Positions 25,663 through 37,960 of a stretch of 64,000 bases of DNA are shown piece after piece. This stretch comes from Halarcobacter ebronensis. GTDB lineage: Bacteria; Campylobacterota; Campylobacteria; Campylobacterales; Arcobacteraceae. Where the stretch lies: contig NZ_CP053836.1 of NCBI RefSeq assembly GCF_013201825.1, forward strand, positions 2,294,001 to 2,358,000, written 5' to 3'. A model generated the notes under the pieces. That model did not search any database. It saw only the letters and a list, made by a program, of their open reading frames with translations, and was not told where the DNA came from. A program made the position numbers and the translations under genes. Position 1 is the first letter of the stretch, and every line of letters begins with the position of its first letter.

Positions 25663-25694
25663 TTGACAAACGCTATATATTATATTATACTACG
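25663..25694 (+). promoter_or_regulatory. Sigma-70 promoter with ModE-like dyad, globin operon
   Basis: TTGACA (25663-25668), 17 bp, TATACT (25686-25691). Overlapping the -10 is CGCTATATA-N6-TATACTACG (25671-25694), a 9-6-9 dyad. The same left arm precedes the operon at 29225. The form resembles the ModE operator of the molybdate system. Confidence 0.6.
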
Positions 25695-25748
25695 AAGTTC
25701 ATTTACTTAAACTACTTGCATTTTTCACAAATTAAGTAAAGGACAAAT

Positions 25749-26348
25749 ATGAATGCAAAAAATTCATACCAAAATTTGGATTATGAAAATCTTCCAAATA
25801 TAAAAAAATTCACTGCATGTGATATTACACAAAAATTCAATCCTACTGGAATAAAAGAACCAATGATTGATTTTGTATTTCCTGAAATCCCCTTCCCTCC
25901 AAAATATTTTTATGAAGAGTTAGGAGAAGAGAAAATTAGAGAACTGGTTTTTTATCACCACAATTTAATGAGAAAAAGTGCCATTGGACATCTCTTTACC
26001 CATGAAGAAGATAAGTTTAAAATTGTACTTGACAGAACTGCTGATTTCTTTCTTGAAGCTTTAGGTGGTGGAGAAAAATACTCTTCAAAATATGGACATC
26101 CTCACTTAAGAGCTAGACATTTCCCTTTTACAATTGACGAAAAAGCAAGAGAGATTTGGCTTATGTTTTTTAAAAAAGCTTTAAAAGATTTAGATGTTCC
26201 AAAAAAATATATAAAAGCTTTTTGGGAGTGGTTGGAGCCAATGTCCCTTAGAATGATAAATAGAAGAACAATGATGGAACTTCCTAAAAGATACCCTTTT
26301 GAAGCAATTGCCAATGAGTTTGGCTTAGGAGAAAATAATGAAAAGTAG
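25749..26348 (+). CDS. Truncated haemoglobin (globin-fold haem protein)
   Basis: 199 residues. The C-terminal ~130 residues fit a group II-like truncated globin: REL...YHHNLMRKSAIGHLF, then SKYGHPHLRARHFPFTI, in which the His of the last motif is the likely proximal haem ligand, and a Trp-rich end helix WEWLEP. The N-terminal ~60 residues are an extra, family-unknown extension. It heads an operon with a FecB-like binding protein, overlapping it by 11 bp, under a promoter with a ModE-like dyad. A role in oxygen, NO or redox handling linked to metal uptake is inference. Confidence 0.78.
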   Translation: MNAKNSYQNLDYENLPNIKKFTACDITQKFNPTGIKEPMIDFVFPEIPFPPKYFYEELGEEKIRELVFYHHNLMRKSAIGHLFTHEEDKFKIVLDRTADFFLEALGGGEKYSSKYGHPHLRARHFPFTIDEKAREIWLMFFKKALKDLDVPKKYIKAFWEWLEPMSLRMINRRTMMELPKRYPFEAIANEFGLGENNEK

Positions 26349-27378
26349 TAAAATACTAATATATCTTCTCCTTTTTTGTTTTATAAATTTATCACTGCAA
26401 GCAAAAACCATAACTGATATGAGTTACACAAAAGTTGAGATTCCAGATAAAATAGAAAAGGTTTTTGGTTCTGCACCACCAACCACATATTTAATCTCGC
26501 TTTTTAATCCAAATATTCTTGTAGGGCATAACTTCCCTGTTTACAATATAAATAACTTTGCTTCAAAAGAGTATGTGGGTGAATATTTTATGAATCTTCC
26601 TATTTTAGGAGGATGGCAAGGGAACCAAAAAGGTGCAAGTATTGAAAAACTTTTAAGTTTAAACACTCAAGTTATCTTCTCTTGGCAAAATGATTTTTTA
26701 CTAAAAAAAGTTGAGAACAGTTTAAAAAACATTAATATACCTGTTGTAATGGTTGATGCAGACAACTTAGAAAAGATGCCTGAAACTTTCAAATTTTTGG
26801 GAGAAGTTCTAAATGATGAAAAAAGAGGAGAGGAACTATCATTATATGCAAAAAACTCTATCTCTTATATAAAAAGTATTACTGAGAATATTAGTGATAA
26901 AGAGCAAAAAAGCTTTTATTATGCAGAAGGAAATGAAGGGCTTCAAAGTGACTGTACCTACTCTTTTCATACTACGCCATTTAGATTTATAAAAGCAAAA
27001 AATATCTATATGTGTGCACAAAAAGATACCATGGGGATGGAGAGCATAAATTTTGAAACAATTTTAAATGCAGACCCTGATTTTATAATTGTTCAGTCTC
27101 CAAAGTTTTATAAAAAGATATTTATAGATGAGAAATGGAAAATTTTAAAAGCTGTAAAAAATAGAAATGTTTATCTAGTCCCAAGAGTTCCTTTTAACTG
27201 GATAGATAGACCTCCTTCTTTTATGAGACTTATTGCAATTCATTGGTTAAGCAAAATCTTCTATCCTAATAGATACACAAAAGATATCAACGAAGAGATA
27301 AAAGATTTTTATAAACTCTTCTTTAATAAAGAGCTAAATACTATAGAGTTACAAAGTATCATAAAAGAGGCTTTTTAA
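26338..27378 (+). CDS. Periplasmic metal(-chelate)-binding protein, FecB/BtuF class (copy 1)
   Basis: 346 residues with signal peptide ILIYLLLFCFINLSLQA. It is of the helical-backbone type III class: GSAPPTTYLISLFNPNILVG, then PDFIIVQSP, and near the end VPFNWIDRPPSFMRLIAIHW. Blocks such as FYYAEGNEGLQSDC are shared with its paralog at 28149-29108. It is the likely receptor for the FecCD/ATPase pair at 30141-31894. FecB-like MolA of Haemophilus influenzae binds molybdate/tungstate; iron, cobalamin or another chelate is the alternative. Confidence 0.8.
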   Translation: MKSSKILIYLLLFCFINLSLQAKTITDMSYTKVEIPDKIEKVFGSAPPTTYLISLFNPNILVGHNFPVYNINNFASKEYVGEYFMNLPILGGWQGNQKGASIEKLLSLNTQVIFSWQNDFLLKKVENSLKNINIPVVMVDADNLEKMPETFKFLGEVLNDEKRGEELSLYAKNSISYIKSITENISDKEQKSFYYAEGNEGLQSDCTYSFHTTPFRFIKAKNIYMCAQKDTMGMESINFETILNADPDFIIVQSPKFYKKIFIDEKWKILKAVKNRNVYLVPRVPFNWIDRPPSFMRLIAIHWLSKIFYPNRYTKDINEEIKDFYKLFFNKELNTIELQSIIKEAF

Positions 27379-27381
27379 ACC

Positions 27382-27407
27382 TAAGAAGATACCAAAGTAT
27401 CTTCTTA
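27382..27407. terminator. Bidirectional terminator
   Basis: Perfect 11-bp inverted repeat TAAGAAGATAC / GTATCTTCTTA with a CAAA loop, between convergent genes. The right arm overlaps the methyltransferase stop codon. Confidence 0.75.
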
Positions 27408-28145
27408 AGCTATATCCCAAACTAAAACTCCAATACTAGAGAAAGTCTCTCTTATAACTTTGCCCTCTTTTTCATAAGGTCTTAAAAATTCAATTGCCTC
27501 ATCAATAGAGATATCCATATCTTTTAATTTTAGATGTTCCACTACATCTTTTGCAATCTCTTCTATTGTTCCTTCTTGAGTCCAATTATGCTCAAAAAAC
27601 TCCTCTTTTGTTTCATATCCTAAAGAGTTAAGATACTCTTTTGTCATATTAAACTTATTTACTGTTCCTTCAAACTCATATCCTAAAAGTTTCATTATAT
27701 CATCCATAATTGGACTATGTCTATCTTTAGAAAAAGAGACAAAAATACAGCTTTTTTTTGATAAATTCATCATTGTATGCAAATCTTCAATAGAACTAAT
27801 AGCTGGTGTCATTGCACTTAAAACAATATCATACTGTTCATCTGTATTAAACTTTTTAAAATCCTCTTTTATCAATCTTATATTATCAATTGCATTTTTA
27901 TCAATATACTCTTTAAAACGACCTAACATTCCACTAGATAAATCAACTCCTAAAATAGAACTTGCATCTTTTGATATTATTGAACTATATAATCCAGTTC
28001 CACAGCCAATATCCAATACACTTTTATTGCTAAAATCTACTCCAAACTCTTTTACTCTTTTTAAAACTCTATTTGGAGTAATTAATCCCTCCTCTTCCAT
28101 TGGTGTTGGATAATTTTTTGATTTAAAATCCCAAAATTGTTCCAT
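27405..28145 (-). CDS. Class I SAM-dependent methyltransferase
   Basis: 246 residues. The S-adenosylmethionine-binding motif VLDIGCGTGLYSSI lies near residue 43, followed by an acidic residue at LGVDLSSGM. The substrate is not evident. It begins 3 bp after the stop of the binding-protein gene upstream on the same strand, so they form a two-gene unit within the metal-uptake island. A role in making or modifying a metal chelator is possible but not shown. Confidence 0.82.
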   Translation of the reverse strand: MEQFWDFKSKNYPTPMEEEGLITPNRVLKRVKEFGVDFSNKSVLDIGCGTGLYSSIISKDASSILGVDLSSGMLGRFKEYIDKNAIDNIRLIKEDFKKFNTDEQYDIVLSAMTPAISSIEDLHTMMNLSKKSCIFVSFSKDRHSPIMDDIMKLLGYEFEGTVNKFNMTKEYLNSLGYETKEEFFEHNWTQEGTIEEIAKDVVEHLKLKDMDISIDEAIEFLRPYEKEGKVIRETFSSIGVLVWDIA

Positions 28146-28148
28146 TTT

Positions 28149-29108
28149 CTACTCTCCTTTTAATAAATTTATAATTTTTTCATCATCTAATGAAACATCT
28201 AAAAAGAGTCTATAAAACTCTTTAACTCTACTATTTATATTGAAACTATAAATATCTTTATAAACAAGATTCCCAAGCCACTGTGCCCCAAGTATTTTCA
28301 TAAATGAAGGTGGTCTGTCAAACCAACTAAAAGGTGAACTAGGTATTAGATATACCTCTTTGTTTTTTACAGCTTTGATATCTTTAAATTTTTCATTTTT
28401 ATAAATATTGTTATAAAAATTTTGCTCTTGTGTTATGATTACATCTGGATTATAAAGTAGCAGTTGTTCTAAAGAGATTCTATCTCTTCCAAAGCCCATT
28501 TTATTACTACACTTGTGAGGGTTCTCTGCACCAATGTATTCAATTAAATCTGCATGAATAGATTTATCACACTCTGTTAATAACCCATCTGTTCCTTCTG
28601 CATAATAGACACTCTTTCTCATTTTTATTTTTTTTTGCAAATTTTCAATCTCTTCTAACTTTGTTTTTGTATATTCTGATAGTAGTTTTGTTCTCTCTTC
28701 CATAAAAAGAGCTTTCCCTATTTCATCATAAACTTTTACATAATCTTTTAAAGAGCTAAGATTTACTTCAAAAGTTTTAAATCCCAAACTATTTATTTTC
28801 TCATTTACCTGTTTAAATCCATTGTTATAGTTCCAAGTTACTACAAGATCAGGATTTACTTTTATAAGTGTTTCAAAGTTTGGAGTTTTTCCTTGCCCAT
28901 ACCAACCACCTATAATAGGCAAACTTCTCATCTCTTCTTTTAAATAAAGCAACTCTTTATCTCTAAATGCATAATTTGTCCCAGCAATTAACTTAGGATT
29001 TATTGAGTATAAAAAGTATGTTGCAGGAGGAGAAGCACCAAAAATAGTAAGATTATCCTTTGAGTAAAGAAAATCTAAAACTAGCAAAAATAAAACCAAT
29101 TTTTTCAC
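28149..29108 (-). CDS. Periplasmic metal(-chelate)-binding protein, FecB/BtuF class (copy 2)
   Basis: 319 residues with signal peptide LVLFLLVLDFLYS. It is a paralog of 26338-27378: both contain a YYAEGxxGL-x2-xC motif, an Asn-x-Phe-Tyr element and a WFDRPPSFMKILG end block. It starts in the divergent region that carries the ModE-like dyad at 29180-29203. The two paralogs may serve one importer with different ligands or affinity. A conserved Cys pair (TECDKS...NPHKC) is shared with the other copy and may form a disulfide. Confidence 0.8.
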   Translation of the reverse strand: MKKLVLFLLVLDFLYSKDNLTIFGASPPATYFLYSINPKLIAGTNYAFRDKELLYLKEEMRSLPIIGGWYGQGKTPNFETLIKVNPDLVVTWNYNNGFKQVNEKINSLGFKTFEVNLSSLKDYVKVYDEIGKALFMEERTKLLSEYTKTKLEEIENLQKKIKMRKSVYYAEGTDGLLTECDKSIHADLIEYIGAENPHKCSNKMGFGRDRISLEQLLLYNPDVIITQEQNFYNNIYKNEKFKDIKAVKNKEVYLIPSSPFSWFDRPPSFMKILGAQWLGNLVYKDIYSFNINSRVKEFYRLFLDVSLDDEKIINLLKGE

Positions 29109-29166
29109 AAAAACTCCTTTTTTGTAATTTTGTATATAAAATAAACAAAATTTATTTTATTTTGTG

Positions 29167-29203
29167 TTGACATTTTATTCGCTATATATTACAATATACA
29201 ACG
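29167..29203 (+). promoter_or_regulatory. Sigma-70 promoter with ModE-like dyad, monooxygenase operon
   Basis: TTGACA (29167-29172), 17 bp, TACAAT (29190-29195). The dyad CGCTATATA-N6-TATACAACG (29180-29203) covers the -10, a repressor-like position. It lies in the divergent region between the two binding-protein and monooxygenase units. Confidence 0.62.
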
Positions 29204-29224
29204 AAAAATTGCAAGTAGGTTGAA

Positions 29225-30136
29225 ATGAATATAGGTTTAATGCTTTTGTATGAAAATTGGGATAACAACTATTCAAATGCTTTCCAACAACAACAGGAAT
29301 TAATATTGTTAGGTGAAGAGCTAGGTTTAGATGAAGTTTGGATAACTGAACATCATTTTAATAAATTTAGTTTAAGCTCATCAATTTTAACTCTAATGGC
29401 ATATATAATTGCAACGACAAAAAAAATAAGAGTAGGAACAGCCTCAATACTTACTCCTATTTATAGTCCAATAATTGTTGCTGAGGCAATTGCGACTCTT
29501 AATGTCCTCAGTAACAACAGATTCAATTTTGGCGTTGCAAAAGGTGGTCCCTTCAAAAAACAGAATGAGTTGTTAGACTTTGAAAACTCAAGGGAGAGAA
29601 TGCTTCACTCTCTTGATGAAATATTTTCATATTTAAAAGAAGAAAGCTCTGTATTTCCAAAACCTATTAGCAATATTCCGACTTTTATAGCTTCTAAAGA
29701 TGAGCAATCTATTACCTATGCAGCCCAAAATAACATAGGATTAATGGCTGCTCATTTATGGTCTACTGAAATTATTAAAACCATGATTGAGCAATATAAA
29801 AAAGCCAATTATCGGAACCTTCCTCCCCAAATTATGTGTTCAAGAGGGTTTTATATGGCAAGTAGCAATGAAGAAGCTATAAATGAAGCGCTTCCCGCGC
29901 TTATAAGATTTAGAGAACAGATGGAAAAACAAGGAATTAGCAGTCCAATTTTTTATGATGAAAATTATTGGATTGAAAATGGAATAATTGGGGATAAAGA
30001 AACGTGCATTAAAAAAATCAAAGAATTGAAAGATTTAGGCATAACAAACTTAGCATTAAAACCGATTTCAAATGATGTAGAAAAAAACAAAACCTCTTTA
30101 GAAAAATTTGCTAAAGAGATTTTACCTAGCTTTTAA
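29225..30136 (+). CDS. Luciferase-like flavin monooxygenase
   Basis: 303 residues in the LLM class: the TIM-barrel start MNIGLMLLYENWDNNYS, the EHHFNKFSLSS stretch, and VGTASILTPIYSPIIVAEAI. These enzymes use reduced FMN and oxygen on small organic substrates. It is the first gene under the promoter with the ModE-like dyad, just before the permease and ATPase. It may act on the imported or exported metal ligand. Which substrate it uses cannot be read here. Confidence 0.83.
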   Translation: MNIGLMLLYENWDNNYSNAFQQQQELILLGEELGLDEVWITEHHFNKFSLSSSILTLMAYIIATTKKIRVGTASILTPIYSPIIVAEAIATLNVLSNNRFNFGVAKGGPFKKQNELLDFENSRERMLHSLDEIFSYLKEESSVFPKPISNIPTFIASKDEQSITYAAQNNIGLMAAHLWSTEIIKTMIEQYKKANYRNLPPQIMCSRGFYMASSNEEAINEALPALIRFREQMEKQGISSPIFYDENYWIENGIIGDKETCIKKIKELKDLGITNLALKPISNDVEKNKTSLEKFAKEILPSF

Positions 30137-30140
30137 TAAA

Positions 30141-31136
30141 ATGAAATCGATTTTAGTTCTATTTATACTATTAGTATTTATCTCTATTTTTTCACTCTCA
30201 TTGGGGCAATATCATTTAGAAATATCACAAATTTTTGATTTTTTTCTTTATAAAGTTGGTTTAAAAGAGATTGATAATTTCCAACTACTACAAAATATAA
30301 TTATGGAGATAAGATTTCCTCGTATTGTTGCCTCAATATTAATTGGTGCTTCATTGGCAATCTCTGGAGTTGCTTTTCAATCAATGTTTAAAAACCCATT
30401 AGTTTCCCCTGGTATTTTAGGAGTACTTTCAGGCGCTGCTTTTGGCGCTGCTTTAGGAATGATATTTTTTAAAAAGTTTTTATTAATTCAAGTTTCATCT
30501 TTTGTTTTTGGTGTTTTAGCTGTATTTATTGCACTATTTATCTCTATGTTTAATAGGCAAAATCAACTAATCCTATTGATTTTAGGAGGAGTTGTAAGTT
30601 CAGCATTTTTTAGTTCTATGCTCTCAATTACTAAATATATGGCAGATCCTTATAATGAGCTTCCTGCAATTGTATATTGGCTAATGGGAAGTTTGGCACT
30701 CATTGATAAACAGACTATTTATATAATCTCAATTCCAATTTTATTGGGAATTTTCCTAATGATACTTCTCTCAAAATATCTAAATATATTAAGCTTGGGA
30801 GATGAAGAGGCAAAAAGTTTGGGAGTAAATGTAAAACTTATAAGATTTGTTATTATCCTAATTGCCACATTCATTAGTGCTTTAACTGTAGTTTTAGCAG
30901 GAATGATAGGATGGGTAGGTTTGGTAATACCACATATTGCAAGACTACTTTTTGGCTCTAATAATATTATTATAGTTCCTATCTCTGCACTTCTTGGAGG
31001 AATTTATCTATTAATAATAGATAATCTATCTAGAACACTTTTTAGTGTAGAAATCCCTATAGGCATTTTAACTTCACTTATTGGAATACCTTTCTTTGCT
31101 TATGCTTTAAAAAATGTAAAAAAAGGATGGGGTTGA
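30141..31136 (+). CDS. FecCD-type ABC importer permease
   Basis: 331 residues from the ATG at 30141. A TTG eleven codons earlier is in frame, but it overlaps the monooxygenase gene and has no clear ribosome-binding site. About ten membrane segments, with the family markers RFPRIVASILIGASLAISGV and GWVGLVIPHIARLLFG. This is the BtuC/FhuB-FecCD fold used for cobalamin, haem and siderophores, and also by MolB for molybdate. Its stop is fused to the ATPase start as TGATG. Confidence 0.87.
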   Translation: MKSILVLFILLVFISIFSLSLGQYHLEISQIFDFFLYKVGLKEIDNFQLLQNIIMEIRFPRIVASILIGASLAISGVAFQSMFKNPLVSPGILGVLSGAAFGAALGMIFFKKFLLIQVSSFVFGVLAVFIALFISMFNRQNQLILLILGGVVSSAFFSSMLSITKYMADPYNELPAIVYWLMGSLALIDKQTIYIISIPILLGIFLMILLSKYLNILSLGDEEAKSLGVNVKLIRFVIILIATFISALTVVLAGMIGWVGLVIPHIARLLFGSNNIIIVPISALLGGIYLLIIDNLSRTLFSVEIPIGILTSLIGIPFFAYALKNVKKGWG

Positions 31137-31894
31137 TGTTTAGAGCAGAAAATCTAAAGTTCTCTTATGGGAAAAAAGAGATTTTAAAAGGCATTAGTTT
31201 TGAAATTAATAGCTCCGACATAGTATCTATTTTAGGTCCAAATGGATGTGGGAAGACTACTCTTCTAAAAATAATGTTAGGTTTTTTAAAACCCACAGAA
31301 GGGAAAATATATTTTGATAATAAAGAGATACATAAAATAAAACCTAAAGAGCTTTTTCAAAAAGTAGCTTATATACCTCAAATACATGATGGTGCCTTTG
31401 GATATTTGGTAAAAGATGTTGTTTTAATGGGAAGAATGCCCTATAAAACTCTCTTCTCAAACTATAACAAATATGATAAAGAGATTACATTAAAAGCTTT
31501 AGATACTTTAGGAATTTTAGAGTTAAAAGATGAAATATATACCACCTTAAGTGGAGGTCAAAGACAGTTAGTGTTAATTGCAAGAGCTATAACACAACAA
31601 GCTGATATATTTATTATGGATGAACCAGTAAATGGCTTAGACTTTGGAAATCAATATAAACTACTCAATAAAATCAAAGAGTTATCAAAAAAAGATTTAA
31701 CCTTTATAAAAACAAGTCACTACCCAGACCATGTTTTTTTTGTTTCAAATGAAGCACTTTTTTTGGATAGAGGTAAAATCCTTGAAAAAGGAGATCCAAA
31801 TTTAATAATAAGAGAGGAGAATATAAAAAGAGTGTATAACATTGAATCAAAGATCACAACTGTTTATAATAGAAAAGTTTGTTTAGCAATGTAA
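31136..31894 (+). CDS. ABC importer ATP-binding protein, FecE/BtuD/MolC class
   Basis: 252 residues from the ATG in TGATG. Walker A GPNGCGKTTLLK (~residue 35), Q-loop YIPQ, signature LSGGQRQLVLIARA (~137), Walker B FIMDEPVNGLD, and an H-loop in TSHYPD. It completes the importer with the FecCD permease and the binding proteins. An earlier in-frame ATG at 31127 is less likely because of the coupled TGATG. Confidence 0.88.
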   Translation: MFRAENLKFSYGKKEILKGISFEINSSDIVSILGPNGCGKTTLLKIMLGFLKPTEGKIYFDNKEIHKIKPKELFQKVAYIPQIHDGAFGYLVKDVVLMGRMPYKTLFSNYNKYDKEITLKALDTLGILELKDEIYTTLSGGQRQLVLIARAITQQADIFIMDEPVNGLDFGNQYKLLNKIKELSKKDLTFIKTSHYPDHVFFVSNEALFLDRGKILEKGDPNLIIREENIKRVYNIESKITTVYNRKVCLAM

Positions 31895-31908
31895 AATTTT
31901 TTTATTAT

Positions 31909-31932
31909 CGTTATATACAAAAGTATATAACA
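31909..31932. promoter_or_regulatory. ModE-like dyad upstream of the first TonB receptor
   Basis: CGTTATATA-N6-TATATAACA. It is the most symmetric of the three sites: only the last base breaks the dyad. It lies 55 bp before the receptor start at 31987. It fits the CGyTATATA-N6/7-TATAryaCG type of ModE operator. Confidence 0.62.
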
Positions 31933-31986
31933 ATTTTGTGACTTATTTTACAAATTTGAAAAGATATAGATTTTAAAGGAGAAAAA

Positions 31987-33918
31987 ATGAAGAAAACAAT
32001 AATTTGTTCAATCTGTTTAGCTTCACTTCTATATGCAAGTGAAAGTGAAGAGTTTAGTTTAGGTGTAATAGATATTAATGGGAAAAAAGATGTAAACAGT
32101 AAAGAAGAGATTTATAGTGAAGATATTGAGTTACACAACTATAGTGATATCTCTGAAGCATTAAGTGAAACAAGTGGGATATTTTTATCAAATAGTGGAG
32201 CAAGAGCTGAAAAAACAATCTCAATTAGAGGTTTTAGTTCAACAAGAGTTGCTGTATTTATGGATGGAATTCCTATTTACATGCCTTATGATGGTAACTT
32301 TGATTATGCAAGATTCACTACTGCTGATTTGTCAAAAATTGACATCTCAAAAGGCTTTTCATCGGTTAGATATGGTGCAAATACTATGGCAGGAGTAATA
32401 AACCTCATCTCAAAAAAACCAACTAAAGAGTTTGAAGGAGATATTAGTTTAGGTTCAAGTTTTGATGATGATTTTGGATTAAGCGAATATACAACAGCAA
32501 TAAATTTAGGAACAAAACAAGAGAATTACTACTTACAATTTTCAGGAAGCATAAGAGACAGAGATCATTTTGATTTATCTCATGATTATCAAGCAACAGC
32601 AAATCAACCTAATGGAGAGAGAATTCAATCCTCTTCAAATGATAAGAAATTTAGTATTAAAGGTGGTTGGACACCAACAGAGGATAGTGAATATGCTCTT
32701 ATGTACTCTAAAACAGATGCCCAAAAAGAGCAACCAAAAACTACAATAGCCAATAATGCTTTAGCAAGAGCTAGAGAGTGGGATTGGCCACAATGGGACA
32801 AAGAGGGAATTTATGCATTTACAGATAATAAATTTGGCGACAACTATTTAAAAACTAGATGGTTTTATGATAAGTTTGACAACTATTTAGTTCAATATCA
32901 AAATAATTCAAATTGGAAAAACTTTCAATGGGGAAGCAGATATGATGATTATAGTTACGGAGGTTCAATAGAGTTTGGTATGCCAATTTCTAACCATGAA
33001 ATTGTTTCATCAATTAGTTATAAATATGATTCACATAAAGCCTATGATGAAAGTGATGTAAAAGATGAAGATTATGCAGATAAAACACTCTCTCTTGCTT
33101 TGGAAGATAGCTATTTTATAACAAAAGATTTAACCCTTGTTACTGGACTTAGCTACGATAGATTAGATGATGATAAAATCTGGGATAGTACAGGAACTTA
33201 TTCAATAAAAAGTATGGATAGTTTTAATCCTCAAATTGGAATATTTTACGACATAAACGAGAGACAAAAAGTAAGTTTTACTGTTGCTAGAAAAACTCAC
33301 CTTCCTACAATGAAAGAGAGATACTCTGAAAAAATGGGTACAGGATTAGCAAATCCTGATTTAAAAGAAGAAGAGGCTACCCACTACGAACTCTCTTACT
33401 CAAATATGTTAACTGATTACTTAAATCTAAAAACAAATCTTTTTTTAATAGATTATAAAGATGCTATTCAAAGTGTAACTGTTTTAGGACTAGACCAAAA
33501 TCAAAATATTGGAGATTTTAGACATAAAGGAGTAGAAGTTGAACTAAACAGCAGTTTTGAAAGACTTACTACAGGTTTAAACTACACTTATATTGATATT
33601 GACAATAGAAATGAAAGTGATTATATAAGAACAGGTATTCCAAAACACTCTATCTTTTTATATGGAAAATATGATTTAACAAATGATCTATCTTTGTATG
33701 CAAATCTAAAAATTGAAGATGATACATATTTACAATATAGAGATAATAGTTATGATAAAAATAGTTATACAACCGTTGATACAAAACTTACTTATAAATA
33801 TGAAAATATGACACTTGAAGCAGGTGTAAAAAACCTTTTTGATGAAAACTACTACTATGACTTGGGTTATTATGAGGCTGGTAGAGAGTACTTTATAAAT
33901 ATGAAATATACATTTTAA
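31987..33918 (+). CDS. TonB-dependent outer-membrane receptor (metal island, copy 1)
   Basis: 643 residues. Signal peptide ...SICLASLLYA, a plug with ISIRGFSSTRVAVFMDGIPI and ISKGFSSVRYGANTMAGVIN, then a barrel ending in an aromatic TF. It is BtuB/siderophore-like in the plug. The upstream ModE-like dyad links it to the import genes before it. AAAGGAG supports the start. It would pass a metal complex across the outer membrane, powered by the ExbBD-TonB set encoded after the second receptor. Confidence 0.85.
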   Translation: MKKTIICSICLASLLYASESEEFSLGVIDINGKKDVNSKEEIYSEDIELHNYSDISEALSETSGIFLSNSGARAEKTISIRGFSSTRVAVFMDGIPIYMPYDGNFDYARFTTADLSKIDISKGFSSVRYGANTMAGVINLISKKPTKEFEGDISLGSSFDDDFGLSEYTTAINLGTKQENYYLQFSGSIRDRDHFDLSHDYQATANQPNGERIQSSSNDKKFSIKGGWTPTEDSEYALMYSKTDAQKEQPKTTIANNALARAREWDWPQWDKEGIYAFTDNKFGDNYLKTRWFYDKFDNYLVQYQNNSNWKNFQWGSRYDDYSYGGSIEFGMPISNHEIVSSISYKYDSHKAYDESDVKDEDYADKTLSLALEDSYFITKDLTLVTGLSYDRLDDDKIWDSTGTYSIKSMDSFNPQIGIFYDINERQKVSFTVARKTHLPTMKERYSEKMGTGLANPDLKEEEATHYELSYSNMLTDYLNLKTNLFLIDYKDAIQSVTVLGLDQNQNIGDFRHKGVEVELNSSFERLTTGLNYTYIDIDNRNESDYIRTGIPKHSIFLYGKYDLTNDLSLYANLKIEDDTYLQYRDNSYDKNSYTTVDTKLTYKYENMTLEAGVKNLFDENYYYDLGYYEAGREYFINMKYTF

Positions 33919-33930
33919 TAGGAGAATTTT

Positions 33931-34389
33931 GTGAAAATAATAGTTCTATTTACCTTAACTTTTTTAAATCTTTTTGCATACTCATTGAGTATACAAGGAG
34001 ATATTAAAGAGCCCTACTCTTTAGATGAAAAAGAGTTCAATCTTTTAACACACACTACACTTAAAGATGTAAGTGTGGTGTGTGCATCAGGGGAAGAGAA
34101 ACAAAAACCAAAAGATTTAAATGGTGTTTTATTAATGGATTTGGTACAAAAAGCTAAAGTTGCTATAAAAAGTAAAAAAAAGCTAAATCAAATTATAGTT
34201 TTAGCAAAAGCAACAGATGATTATGCTGTTGCTTTTAGTTATAACGAAATATTCAATACTGATATTGGAAACTCCATAATTGTAGTATATGAAAACAATA
34301 GCTTTTCTCTATATTCTAAAAAAGATTTTTTAACTGGACCTAGACACGTTTATTCTTTAGATGAAATACAAATTAAGTTAATTGAATAA
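33931..34389 (+). CDS. Small exported SUOX-fold (molybdopterin-domain-like) protein
   Basis: 152 residues from a GTG start 12 bp after the receptor stop, with AGGAG before it. The signal peptide is IIVLFTLTFLNLFAYS. The rest resembles the oxidoreductase molybdopterin-binding (sulfite oxidase) fold: VVCASGEE with the cysteine at the site where SUOX ligates Mo, DLNGVLLMDLVQKA and DFLTGPRHVYSLDEIQI. It lacks the rest of a SUOX enzyme. Such small proteins may act in the periplasm as binders. That is inference. Confidence 0.6.
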   Translation: MKIIVLFTLTFLNLFAYSLSIQGDIKEPYSLDEKEFNLLTHTTLKDVSVVCASGEEKQKPKDLNGVLLMDLVQKAKVAIKSKKKLNQIIVLAKATDDYAVAFSYNEIFNTDIGNSIIVVYENNSFSLYSKKDFLTGPRHVYSLDEIQIKLIE

Positions 34390-34480
34390 AGGAGAGGATT
34401 AGATGTAAAAAAAGAGTTCCTAAATTAATGTTATTTACAAAAGGTTGCATGAGATAACAATAACTAAAAAAAGGAAAACA

Positions 34481-36478
34481 ATGAAATATACACACACAAG
34501 TCTAATTACAGCACTATTTTTAAGTAGTACACTTTATGCTACACAAGAGTTTAAACTTGAGCAAATAGAGGTTACTGATACTTTGTCAGCAAAAACAATG
34601 GATGAGATAAAATATGAGCAGTTAAACGATCCTCAAGTGCCAACAGCTAGTTCAACTTTATCAACAGAGACATTTACAAAAAGTGATATTGAAAAAATCA
34701 AACCAAAAAATGTTTATGAAATATTAAATAGTGCCCAAAGTGTTAACATCTTATATATGGGAAGAAAACACCCTTATACAATCTCTTTTAGAGGTAGTTC
34801 AACAGGAGTTGGTGCTAGTTCTTTTGGCATTATTTTAGATGGGGCTTTACTTAGTGATAATACAGCAATGAGAATTTTAGAGGTTTTACCTCCTGAAATG
34901 ATAGAGTCTTTACAAATTGTAAGAGATTCAAGTGCCCTAAGTCTTGCACCAATGCAAGCTTTTGGTAATCCAAATGGTTCACCTCTTCAAGGCTATATTG
35001 TAATAAAAACTAAAAAACCACTCAAAAATGAGGGTGGATTAAAAGTTGCTTACGAGAGTTTCAATACAAAAAAGACAAACTTTTTTTATGGTGGAAGAAG
35101 TGATGATATCTACTATATGGGTTCAATTGATGCAGTTGATAGCCAAGGTAAAGATGGGTATAACACTGCAAAAGAGGGAGCAAGTGGTTTTTTTAAAGTT
35201 GGTATGGATAAAGATGATTTCAATATTGAACTAAGTGGTTTTTATTCAAGATATTTTCAAGAGATTCAAAAAGCCAATTTGCCAATTAGTAGGTTTTACA
35301 ACGTATATTGGAAATACCAACCTTTCGAAAATGGTTTAATAAGTCTTAGTATGACAAAAAACTGGAACAGTAATCAAAATACCAATATAACACTATCTCA
35401 CGCAAAATCAAACTGGACACACAATCAAGATACAACAGGGGTAACTTATACCTATTTTGTTGGTTCACAAACTAATGATTCAGTTAATATCAAACATACA
35501 ATGAAACTTGCTGATACAATCTTAAAAGTTGGTGGACAAGCTATCTGGTATGATTCTCCAAATGGAGAACTTTTTTATGAAGGATATGAGAGAAAAGAGC
35601 AAATTTATGGTGCTTTTATCCAAGCTCAACACTTTATTAGTGACAAACTTATAATTGATGAAGCAATTAGAATTGATAAAAAACATATTGATTCTCTTTT
35701 GGAAAGATATAGCCCAAATACAGATCTTAGTTATCCTGGGAATCTAAATAATACAAAAGTTTCAACTATAAATGATAAATGGGCAAAAGCAACACTAAAT
35801 CTAGCTCTTGGTGCCTTATATAAAATTGATGATAAAAATACACTAACAGGTAAATTTGCTTATGCTTCTAACTCTGTAACAAGTGATATAACAACATCAG
35901 AAGTGGGAACTGCTCTTGAAAAAGAGGAGCAATATAGATATGAGTTGGGATATGAATACAATTTTGCAAAAGCAGTTGCAAAAGCAAATGTTTTTTATTA
36001 TGATATAAATAATTTAAAATCCCCATATTATATTGGAACTGCTGCAAACCCACAAATTGTATTCTCACAATATGACCAAGAGAGATATGGTAGTGAGTTA
36101 TCTTTTGAAGGGAAAATTGACTCATTTGATTATTTACTTAATTATTCATATGTTAAAGCTGACAATAAAAACAATGAAATTCCAAATCATATAGCCTCTG
36201 CAAAATTTGGTTACACATATAAAGATATTAACACAAACATAACAACAAAATATGTTGATGGATACGAATCAAACTTCTTTACAACAGATAATAATTATCA
36301 CAAAGTTGGGGATTTTGTAGTTGTTGATATGGGAGTTGATTATAGACATAAACTCAATGGATATGATGCAATAGCTTCTATATATGGAAAAAATATAACA
36401 GATAAAAAATATATGACAAAAATTGGTTGGGAAGATGTTGGAGCAATTTTTGGAATAAGTTATTCAATTAAATTTTAG
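34481..36478 (+). CDS. TonB-dependent outer-membrane receptor (metal island, copy 2)
   Basis: 665 residues from the ATG at 34481, with AAAGGA before it; an upstream in-frame ATG at 34445 has no such site. Signal peptide SLITALFLSSTLYA. The plug has TISFRGSSTGVGASSFGIIL and LQIVRDSSALSLAPMQAFGN, which is unusual because the normal glycine-rich GxxSxxxG plug motif is replaced. The barrel ends in KF. Neighbours downstream are ExbB, ExbD and TonB in one unit. Confidence 0.83.
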   Translation: MKYTHTSLITALFLSSTLYATQEFKLEQIEVTDTLSAKTMDEIKYEQLNDPQVPTASSTLSTETFTKSDIEKIKPKNVYEILNSAQSVNILYMGRKHPYTISFRGSSTGVGASSFGIILDGALLSDNTAMRILEVLPPEMIESLQIVRDSSALSLAPMQAFGNPNGSPLQGYIVIKTKKPLKNEGGLKVAYESFNTKKTNFFYGGRSDDIYYMGSIDAVDSQGKDGYNTAKEGASGFFKVGMDKDDFNIELSGFYSRYFQEIQKANLPISRFYNVYWKYQPFENGLISLSMTKNWNSNQNTNITLSHAKSNWTHNQDTTGVTYTYFVGSQTNDSVNIKHTMKLADTILKVGGQAIWYDSPNGELFYEGYERKEQIYGAFIQAQHFISDKLIIDEAIRIDKKHIDSLLERYSPNTDLSYPGNLNNTKVSTINDKWAKATLNLALGALYKIDDKNTLTGKFAYASNSVTSDITTSEVGTALEKEEQYRYELGYEYNFAKAVAKANVFYYDINNLKSPYYIGTAANPQIVFSQYDQERYGSELSFEGKIDSFDYLLNYSYVKADNKNNEIPNHIASAKFGYTYKDINTNITTKYVDGYESNFFTTDNNYHKVGDFVVVDMGVDYRHKLNGYDAIASIYGKNITDKKYMTKIGWEDVGAIFGISYSIKF

Positions 36479-36487
36479 GATATTTAA

Positions 36488-36925
36488 ATGATAGAGTTAA
36501 TTAAAATATATATCGAATACTCGATAATCGGGATTTTAGGATTTATGAGTTTTTTAACTTTATGGTTTGGTTTAGAGAGAGTTTTTTATCTAACAAAAGT
36601 GGATATAAGAACTTTTGAAAAAAGAGGTGAGCTTGAAAATAGGCTCACTTCAAACCTTACCATAATCTCAACAATCGCGTCAAATGCACCATATATTGGT
36701 CTTTTAGGAACTGTATGCGGGATTATGATTACCTTTTATAAAATCTCACTAGATGGTAACTTTGAGACAAATAGTGTAATGTTAGGTCTTGCTTTGGCTC
36801 TTAAAGCAACAGCTATAGGGATTTTAGTGGCAATACTTGCAACAGTTATTTATAATATGTTGGCAAGAAAAGCAGAAGTATTAATAACAAGATGGGAAGA
36901 TTTAAATGAAGATCAAAAAATTTGA
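36488..36925 (+). CDS. exbB: ExbB-type energy-transducing subunit
   Basis: 145 residues, shorter than canonical ExbB (~230). Three membrane segments, with SNAPYIGLLGTVCGIMITFY and LALALKATAIGILVAIL, the MotA/TolQ/ExbB-type core. It is the short single-domain form common in TonB systems of this phylum. AGGATATTTA supplies the ribosome site. With ExbD it uses the proton motive force to drive TonB. Confidence 0.9.
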   Translation: MIELIKIYIEYSIIGILGFMSFLTLWFGLERVFYLTKVDIRTFEKRGELENRLTSNLTIISTIASNAPYIGLLGTVCGIMITFYKISLDGNFETNSVMLGLALALKATAIGILVAILATVIYNMLARKAEVLITRWEDLNEDQKI

Positions 36926-37286
36926 CTCTATGAATGTAATCCCTTTCATTGATATTATGCTTGTATTATTGACTATTGTACTTACTTTTTCAACTTTTAT
37001 AGCACAAGGAAGATTACAATTGCAACTCCCAAAATCAACAACAAGTGAACAAATTGATTTAAAACTAAAAGAGTTGACAATAGATAAAAATGGCAGTGTA
37101 ACATTTGAAAAAGAGATTGTAACATTACAAAATCTAAAAGAGAAGTTAATACCTCTTTCAAAAGAGACAAATATCTCCATAAAAGCTGATGAAAATACAC
37201 CTTTTAAAACTTTTGTTTATGTTATTAGTATTTTCAAAGAACTGAAACTAGAAAAAATATCAATAATAACAGAAGTAGAAAAATGA
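36906..37286 (+). CDS. exbD: ExbD-type energy-transducing subunit
   Basis: 126 residues: one N-terminal membrane helix with the proton-path aspartate in IPFIDIMLVLLTIVLTF, and a periplasmic domain. It overlaps exbB by 20 bp and tonB by 4 bp. The set is dedicated to the receptors upstream, though one ExbBD-TonB can serve others. Confidence 0.92.
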   Translation: MKIKKFDSMNVIPFIDIMLVLLTIVLTFSTFIAQGRLQLQLPKSTTSEQIDLKLKELTIDKNGSVTFEKEIVTLQNLKEKLIPLSKETNISIKADENTPFKTFVYVISIFKELKLEKISIITEVEK

Positions 37287-37960
37287 AATACTCTGTTATT
37301 GCTTTTATAATCTCTTTGTTTGTTCATAGTCTACTTGTAGCTGCATACTTTTCTATTAATACTACAAAAGAGAAAAAAGAGATAATAGTTTTAAATATGA
37401 ATATGATTGATAAGATTATTGAAACAAAAAAAGTAGAAAAAGCAGAACAAAAAATCAATACTAAAGATGAAAAAAAGAGTGTTGAAAGAATTGAAAAGAA
37501 ACCTTTAATAAAAAAAGAGAAAAAGATAGTAAAAAAAACTCTAGAGAAAGAGAAAATTAAAGAGGAACAAAAAGAAGAGTTAAAAAAGATAGTAAAAAGT
37601 AAAGAGATAGAGAAAAAACCTATAATAAAAAAAGAAGAAGATAGTATAAAAAGAGTGAAAAATGGTGAAAACTATCAAGAAAAATATATAAAATCAAATT
37701 TATCAAAAATAATTGCTGCCATAAAAAAACATAAAAAGTATCCTTACTTAGCTAAAAAGATGCAAATGGAAGGAAAAGTTATTATCAAATGTATAATCAC
37801 CTCAAAGGGTGAAATTAGAAATATAGATTTTGTGGAAAAATCATCTTTTGAAATTTTAAATAAAAATAGTATTGAGATTTTAAAAAAGGCTTCAAAAGAG
37901 TTTGAAGCTCCTAAAAAAGAGATTGAGTTAACAATCCCTTTTAACTATGAACTAACTTAG
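37283..37960 (+). CDS. tonB: TonB protein
   Basis: 225 residues. An N-terminal membrane anchor (VIAFIISLFVHSLLVAAYF), then a long Lys/Glu-rich linker (~45-140; usual TonB linkers are Pro-rich), and the C-terminal TonB domain KYPYLAKKMQMEGKVIIKCI. Its stop overlaps the convergent msrBA gene by 4 bp. The linker is more charged than proline-rich, which is common in Campylobacterota. Confidence 0.92.
   Translation: MKYSVIAFIISLFVHSLLVAAYFSINTTKEKKEIIVLNMNMIDKIIETKKVEKAEQKINTKDEKKSVERIEKKPLIKKEKKIVKKTLEKEKIKEEQKEELKKIVKSKEIEKKPIIKKEEDSIKRVKNGENYQEKYIKSNLSKIIAAIKKHKKYPYLAKKMQMEGKVIIKCIITSKGEIRNIDFVEKSSFEILNKNSIEILKKASKEFEAPKKEIELTIPFNYELT

Follow-up and report, generated by a model that had tools for sequence, protein, structure and literature searches.

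A probable ModE-controlled, TonB-dependent uptake island for molybdenum or tungsten compounds in Halarcobacter ebronensis

Positions 25663-37960 of a 64,000-nucleotide stretch of the Halarcobacter ebronensis genome (the window: positions 2,294,001-2,358,000 of NZ_CP053836.1, forward strand, in a single-contig 3.17-Mb genome that carries nitrogenase genes) hold a gene island that most probably encodes an accessory, high-affinity, ModE-controlled and TonB-dependent uptake system for molybdenum (Mo) or tungsten (W). The reading is drawn because the operators are conserved in relatives, because related importers stand beside modC or beside Tup/Wtp-type genes and moeA, and because these settings share one receptor group. 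A preliminary description of the window had listed two FecB-fold binding proteins (here SBP1 and SBP2), a FecCD permease, an ATPase, two TonB receptors (TBDT1 and TBDT2) and ExbBD-TonB, and this gene content was borne out by Pfam domains (Table 1). Four island genes had gone unmentioned, namely, those for a globin, a methyltransferase, a luciferase-like (LLM) flavin monooxygenase, and a small protein with a SUOX (sulfite oxidase-type) fold. By Pfam, both the TonB-dependent transport set (plug/barrel receptor, ExbB, ExbD, and TonB) and the BtuCD/FecCD-type (type II) importer set (Peripla_BP_2 protein, FecCD permease, and ABC ATPase) are complete. Molybdate is usually seen as entering through porins and then ModABC, and to our knowledge the import of Mo/W compounds is not a job usually ascribed to TonB.

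The dyads that suggested ModE control had been described as three 24-bp elements of the form CGyTATATA-N6-TATAyaaCG. All three lie where they had been placed, although operator 3 ends in CA and not in the CG of that form. When up to two mismatches were allowed, the typed pattern gave six strand-matches, compared with 0.14 expected in shuffled sequence, and in the whole genome only the three window sites came within one mismatch of it. For an independent motif, we applied palindromic expectation maximization to 330-bp regions 5' of the ModE domain, taken from 20 genomes of Arcobacteraceae lacking a match to SBP2. The resulting motif, CgTTATATAtttaaaTATATAAcG, reached a log-likelihood of 259.6, compared with 37.5 to 46.1 in five permuted sets. 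It ranked the three dyads first to third in the window (scores in Table 1), followed by a place at 6.4 bits, and the best score in 100 simulated 64-kb sequences was 17.3 bits. In this genome, the motif was scored on the window and on loci fetched with the typed pattern, and other strong sites may exist; among the 22 loci fetched, scores above 12 bits were confined to the modE promoter and the island.

A modE gene was looked for in the same genome and found. The single ModE is full length, with a helix-turn-helix (HTH) domain recognized by TIGR00637 above its cut-off and two Mop/TOBE domains; the equivalog model NF007957 stayed below its cut-off. Its own promoter carries two motif sites, at 28.1 and 17.8 bits. 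The island operators resemble the sites in relatives' modE promoters. The gene order, in one direction, is nifD-nifK-modE-modA-mop-modB-modC-modA2-modB2-modD (locus G000:C1:44000-60500, L023), where only the 3' part of nifD was seen and the second pair after modC is of the modA/modB type. The island is remote from modE. Elsewhere, a free-standing gene for a two-TOBE molbindin (L025:6891-7307) is preceded by two overlapping, weak ModE-like dyads (9.4 bits). No Rfam RNA, the Moco riboswitch included, reached its gathering score within the window.

Next, we surveyed the family. SBP2 relatives were present in 22 of 104 Arcobacteraceae genomes, and 20 stretches from 18 of these 22 were compared, leaving out H. 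ebronensis itself and three weak cases (G016, G045, and G049). Binding proteins with a WxDRPPSFM motif were encoded in 13 stretches (12 genomes). These contained 25 motif sites of at least 15 bits, spread over 12 of the 13, compared with 0.05 expected. The seven stretches with other FecCD sets had no site of at least 15 bits, and the looser pattern gave a single two-mismatch match there (L076). In all five orthologous islands (L058, L059, L060, L065, and L070), pattern sites recur 5' of the globin gene, 5' of the monooxygenase or permease gene, and 3' of the ATPase gene. Thirteen of these 15 sites exceed 12 bits, the other two being the pre-permease sites of L065 and L070. The claim of ModE regulation is thus supported by an independent motif, a full-length ModE, and operators conserved in relatives, and the island is almost certainly under ModE control, about as firmly as sequence allows.

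Two of the dyads had been said to cover the -10 element of a TTGACA promoter, and operators 1 and 2 do overlie such elements. TTGAC, the 17-base spacing, and the operator are all kept in six aligned globin/SBP1 promoters (H. ebronensis and five orthologous islands) and in four aligned second promoters (H. ebronensis and three orthologous islands). Promoter-like matches overall scarcely exceeded those in shuffled sequence (82 versus 69.3; standard deviation, 9.1). Three of the 82 matched at 11 of 12 positions, the third being at 27723-27694 on the minus strand. Operator 3 has no clear promoter: no TTGACA-type promoter was seen there, and the closest plus-strand match listed (10 of 12; 31842-31870) precedes the operator. 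A 14-base element, CTACTTGCAxTTTT, occurs immediately 3' of operator 1 (25712-25725, plus strand) and, in the reverse orientation, of operator 2 (29205-29218, minus strand); it is mostly kept in relatives. The element CTACTTGCA of both leaders has two exact copies in the window; with up to two mismatches, its matches were not above chance (nine versus 6.7 expected).

The family survey also linked the importer to molybdate genes. In eight of the 13 stretches (L061 to L064 and L066 to L069), the importer set lies immediately 3' of modC, at the end of a modA-mop-modB-modC run. A full-length ModE heads this run in six of the eight. The contig of L066 starts near that place, and in L067 a 143-amino-acid (aa) protein with two Mop domains and no HTH takes it, the ModE match of that genome lying elsewhere on the contig. 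In seven of the eight stretches, a motif site (12.7 to 24.1 bits) separates modC from the gene that follows; L064 has no site and no receptor at that place.

An apparent tungsten-side counterpart of the island occurs in four further stretches (L071, L073, L074, and L075), which lack both the DRPPS motif and ModE sites. Their FecCD sets point the same way as neighboring genes for which TupA and MoeA gave the best matches; Wtp parts and a TonB gene also adjoin in L073, L074, and L075. In L074, genes for MoeA, WtpA-C-B, TupA-B-C, TonB, FecCD, an ATPase, and a binding protein follow one another in one direction with small gaps. Of the curated cut-offs, only that of WtpA was passed; matches to Tup, WtpB, WtpC, and MoeA were strong yet below theirs. 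Proteins of about 244 aa without a Pfam match adjoin in L074 (10123-10857), L153 (14656-15390), and L067 (3502-4233), and that of L074 weakly resembles methanogenesis marker protein 11, far under the cut-off.

The receptors of the two settings are related. A careful tree built from 38 receptors placed TBDT1 in one group with three orthologues, eight receptors linked to mod genes (from seven stretches), and four W-linked receptors, with full support (100/100); 18 other H. ebronensis receptors, TBDT2 among them, fell outside it. The genome has 20 plug-bearing receptors in total, many of whose rows end early because they were cut by the 3-kb loci. The tree omits 11 of 49 rows: TBDT1 and TBDT2 duplicates, own_L195 and Oth_L077 (long or distant sequences), and seven other island receptors that had formed two further groups, separate from TBDT1, in an earlier quick tree.

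To place the system more broadly, we scanned GTDB genomes with the binding-protein alignment and obtained 430 relatives. From the best 80, which are not a random sample, we examined 77 loci, with open reading frames and mod genes called by BLAST thresholds that we set and lineages sorted by hand; five loci (L098, L152, L122, L137, and L148) are contigs of the family survey. The loci came from Campylobacterota (including Sulfurospirillum, Sulfuricurvum, Sulfurimonas, and Sulfurovum), Desulfobacterota (including Desulfobacter, Geobacter, and Desulfobulbus), and a few others. A mod gene was found in 27 of the 77, a site of at least 15 bits in 29, and either of the two in 44 (24 of 28 Campylobacterota, 16 of 41 Desulfobacterota-type, and 4 of 8 other loci). 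There were 47 such sites, 42 of them intergenic, compared with 0.1 expected. For Geobacter sulfurreducens, a ModE regulon with several transport systems has been predicted (PMC2700814); the word TonB is absent from the main text of that paper.

Accessory genes split by lineage. With profiles each seeded by one Pfam-confirmed protein, an LLM monooxygenase or a globin was found in 24 of 28 Campylobacterota loci versus none of 41 Desulfobacterota-type loci. DUF364 showed the reverse pattern (none versus 18), as did FmdE (0 versus 18). Methyltransferases of the compared types occurred in 53 of the 77 loci. In PMC2954201, DUF364 is tied by context and structure to metal chelation, with a flavin- or pterin-like compound as the proposed chelator, and its genome context includes iron, tungstate, vanadium, and molybdate transport genes.

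The molybdate/tungstate importer MolBCA of Haemophilus influenzae had been cited as a known BtuCD-fold case. The SBP2 model (m5c34a71cebba; predicted local distance difference test [pLDDT] score, 84.7) had its nearest match in 4pag, which its entry title gives as a solute-binding protein from Sulfurospirillum deleyianum (Z, 33.9 over 308 residues). It was followed by 4hn9 (Z, 26.8), 4ovk (25.6), and MolA (3psa; 23.0), with 4mo9 tied with MolA. MolA and SBP2 share 19% identity over the structural alignment, and sequence matches of the island binding proteins to MolA were distant (E values of 5.7e-9 and 2.7e-13). Two cysteines and WxDRPPSFM are invariant in 19 members of the binding-protein family and have no counterpart in the MolA alignment. 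MolA and the island proteins share a fold and are distant relatives; other chains are closer, and the motifs are not shared.

The SUOX-fold protein (152 aa, with a GTG start) matched no Pfam or NCBIfam model. Its structure model (pLDDT, 82.5) gave Foldseek E values of 4.5e-5 to 2bii and 6.0e-5 to PruR (7kom), and Z scores of 13.8 to SoxC, about 13 to sulfite oxidases, and 12.7 to PruR. A cysteine (residue 51 here) is kept in 22 of 23 family rows (19 of 20 distinct members, since three genomes recur), and a weak match of the family profile (E = 0.058) places it near a cysteine of a nitrate reductase. By the fold and this profile match, the conserved cysteine is a probable Mo-ligand position. 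The protein was found in 13 of the 77 loci. By eye, its start resembles a signal peptide in Campylobacterota and not in the Desulfobacterota members shown, so the site of action may differ there.

We infer the following scheme for repression, transport, cargo, and ligand processing. When Mo (or W) is sufficient, ModE would occupy the operators (operators 1 and 2 cover -10 elements) and repress the transcription units; this step is suggested by operator position and known ModE biology. When Mo/W is scarce, ExbB-ExbD-TonB would energize TBDT1, and perhaps TBDT2, so that a Mo/W compound enters the periplasm. SBP1 and SBP2 would pass the compound to the FecCD-type permease and its ATPase. Accessory enzymes (the LLM monooxygenase and globin here, others in anaerobes, and the methyltransferase in most) may then process the ligand and free the metal.

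The cargo is very likely a Mo or W species, and we lean toward a chelate over the bare oxyanion. The preliminary description had proposed Mo or W, or their chelates, as the substrate of TonB-dependent import; this was supported, with the oxyanion form less favored than the chelate. A chelate is favored because several receptors and binding proteins accompany a single BtuC-type permease and because the accessory enzymes resemble ligand-processing ones. The L058 island has four receptors and four binding proteins with one permease (the stretch ends within the gene of the fourth binding protein), and L065 has three receptors and two binding proteins around one permease. One importer combined with O2-using enzymes in one lineage and with others in anaerobes would be expected if an organic ligand were opened after import.

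The alternative of most weight, which we regard as possible but doubtful, is that the same system imports free molybdate or tungstate, or inorganic thiomolybdate, with TonB in use on account of an extremely low concentration. In its favor are the linkage to ModABC and Tup/Wtp-type genes, which encode oxyanion carriers, and the binding of molybdate by H. influenzae MolA (entry title), the distant fold relative noted above. Many of the scanned organisms are also named for sulfur or sulfate metabolism, and thiomolybdates may form where they live. The multiple receptors and binding proteins per permease and the lineage-split accessory enzymes (LLM/globin versus DUF364) instead suggest an organic ligand. 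MolBCA is a BtuCD-type importer able to carry free molybdate, so the permease type is no proof of a chelate.

A more specific form of the chelate reading is speculative, and we give it a small chance: Mo or W would arrive bound to an organic ligand, possibly one resembling a pterin or flavin, and the cargo would be either a dedicated molybdophore or a compound of the molybdopterin type obtained by salvage. The complex would be bound or acted on by the SUOX-fold protein, which keeps its cysteine, and Campylobacterota (O2-using LLM enzyme and globin) and Desulfobacterota (DUF364 and FmdE) would each use a chemistry of their own to open this ligand.

It is improbable that these genes sit in the ModE regulon for another nutrient (an iron siderophore, heme, vanadium, or a corrinoid) that supports Mo-free alternatives. 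What speaks for it is that the best-scoring family models of TBDT1 are those of siderophore and hemin receptors and that the binding proteins match ferrioxamine, IsdE, and BtuF models; the receptor matches are under their cut-offs and those of the binding proteins far under. In Azotobacter, three TonB-receptor genes depend on VnfA1, the activator of V-nitrogenase (PMC9542535). Against another nutrient, the same receptor group and importer type adjoin modABC, as well as tungstate-type transporters plus MoeA. The window also had no match, at up to three mismatches, to the E. coli-type Fur consensus, although this lineage may have a different Fur box.

Several observations weigh against the Mo/W uptake reading itself. 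Because modABC and a second pair of the modA/modB type are also present in the genome, molybdate entry as such does not require the island. Most genomes of the family (88 of 104) have ModE, which makes its presence alone weak evidence. The receptors of L072 and L076 fall inside the TBDT1 group with no Mo/W gene among their scanned neighbors. TBDT2 and further receptors of related islands fall outside the group and may have other cargo. Of the 77 loci, 33 (25 of them Desulfobacterota-type) lack both a mod gene and a site, and some contigs are short. ModE motifs have been reported to differ among deltaproteobacteria (PMC545781), so the absence of sites there is not strong evidence either way. 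At up to three mismatches, the typed pattern was not enriched in this AT-rich genome (39 matches versus 79 for a control pattern), so the claim of ModE sites rests on the strong sites and the position-weight test. That count is what could be said for chance AT-rich palindromes in an ordinary iron-siderophore locus, a very unlikely reading that is rejected by the strong sites, the ranking by the de novo motif, conservation at the same places, and the lack of sites of at least 15 bits in the seven other FecCD stretches.

Table 1. Genes, operators, and promoters of the island (window positions)
Feature	Position	Strand	Basis and remarks
Promoter TTGACA-N17-TATACT, globin/SBP1 unit	25663..25691	+	11/12 match
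ModE operator 1, CGCTATATATTATATTATACTACG	25671-25694	none	Pattern; de novo motif, 19.0 bits; conserved in relatives
Globin, bacterial-like	25749..26348	+	PF01152; nearest solved chain 4nk1
SBP1, FecB-fold binding protein with WIDRPPSFM	26338..27378	+	PF01497; nearest solved chain 4pag
S-adenosylmethionine-dependent methyltransferase	27405..28145	-	PF13649
SBP2, FecB-fold binding protein	28149..29108	-	PF01497; divergent from second promoter
Promoter TTGACA-N17-TACAAT	29167..29195	+	11/12 match
ModE operator 2, CGCTATATATTACAATATACAACG	29180-29203	none	Pattern; de novo motif, 20.9 bits; between divergent SBP2 and monooxygenase genes
Luciferase-like (LLM) flavin monooxygenase	29225..30136	+	PF00296; TIGR03558 under its cut-off
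FecCD/BtuC-type permease	30108..31136	+	PF01032, E = 4.9e-85
ABC ATPase	31127..31894	+	PF00005
ModE operator 3, CGTTATATACAAAAGTATATAACA	31909-31932	none	Pattern; de novo motif, 22.5 bits; between ATPase and receptor genes
TBDT1, TonB-dependent receptor, Mo/W-linked group	31987..33918	+	PF00593 and PF07715; tree
SUOX/PruR-fold small protein	33931..34389	+	Structure model; no Pfam or NCBIfam match
TBDT2, second TonB receptor	34445..36478	+	PF07715; outside Mo/W-linked group by tree
ExbB	36488..36925	+	PF01618
ExbD	36906..37286	+	PF02472
TonB	37283..37960	+	PF03544

Our literature search, which left most subscription journals outside its scope, turned up no account of a ModE-controlled TonB system or of a TonB/molybdate system, and in a 2024 review of TonB substrates (PMC11658791) a word search found neither "molybd" nor "tungst". 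If the Mo/W uptake reading is right, Mo and W would be hunted like iron in the habitats of Campylobacterota and Desulfobacterota. Mo/W chelates would be a currency there, and the system may be needed for nitrogen fixation and for other Mo/W enzymes. Should the ligand be organic, a ModE-ruled counterpart of the siderophore world would extend across sediment anaerobes and microaerobes. A testable substrate hypothesis also follows for a receptor group and for the binding-protein family with its 430 relatives, whose best family models here are those for siderophores, heme, and B12.

Compared with known systems, the island shares with the E. coli-type ModE regulon a full-length ModE (HTH and two Mop domains), the operator form, and the control of modABC; unlike there, sites in H. 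ebronensis also cover a TonB receptor/FecCD island. MolBCA (HI1470-1472) is likewise a BtuCD-type importer with a FecB-fold binding protein, but the island adds TonB receptors and ExbBD-TonB, and identity is only about 19%. PruR, a periplasmic pterin-binding protein in which Trp replaces the Mo-ligating Cys of SUOX enzymes (PMC13259868), resembles the island SUOX-fold protein in size, fold, and a signal-peptide-like start; in the island family, in contrast, the Cys is kept. DUF364 (PF04016) is represented in 18 of the 77 related loci, whereas the window island has no DUF364 gene and the single match of the genome lies elsewhere. With TonB-dependent uptake of siderophores and B12, the island has the whole machinery in common (receptor, TonB-ExbBD, Peripla_BP_2 protein, FecCD permease, and ATPase), and it differs in having ModE operators, linkage to Mo/W genes, and a receptor group of its own.

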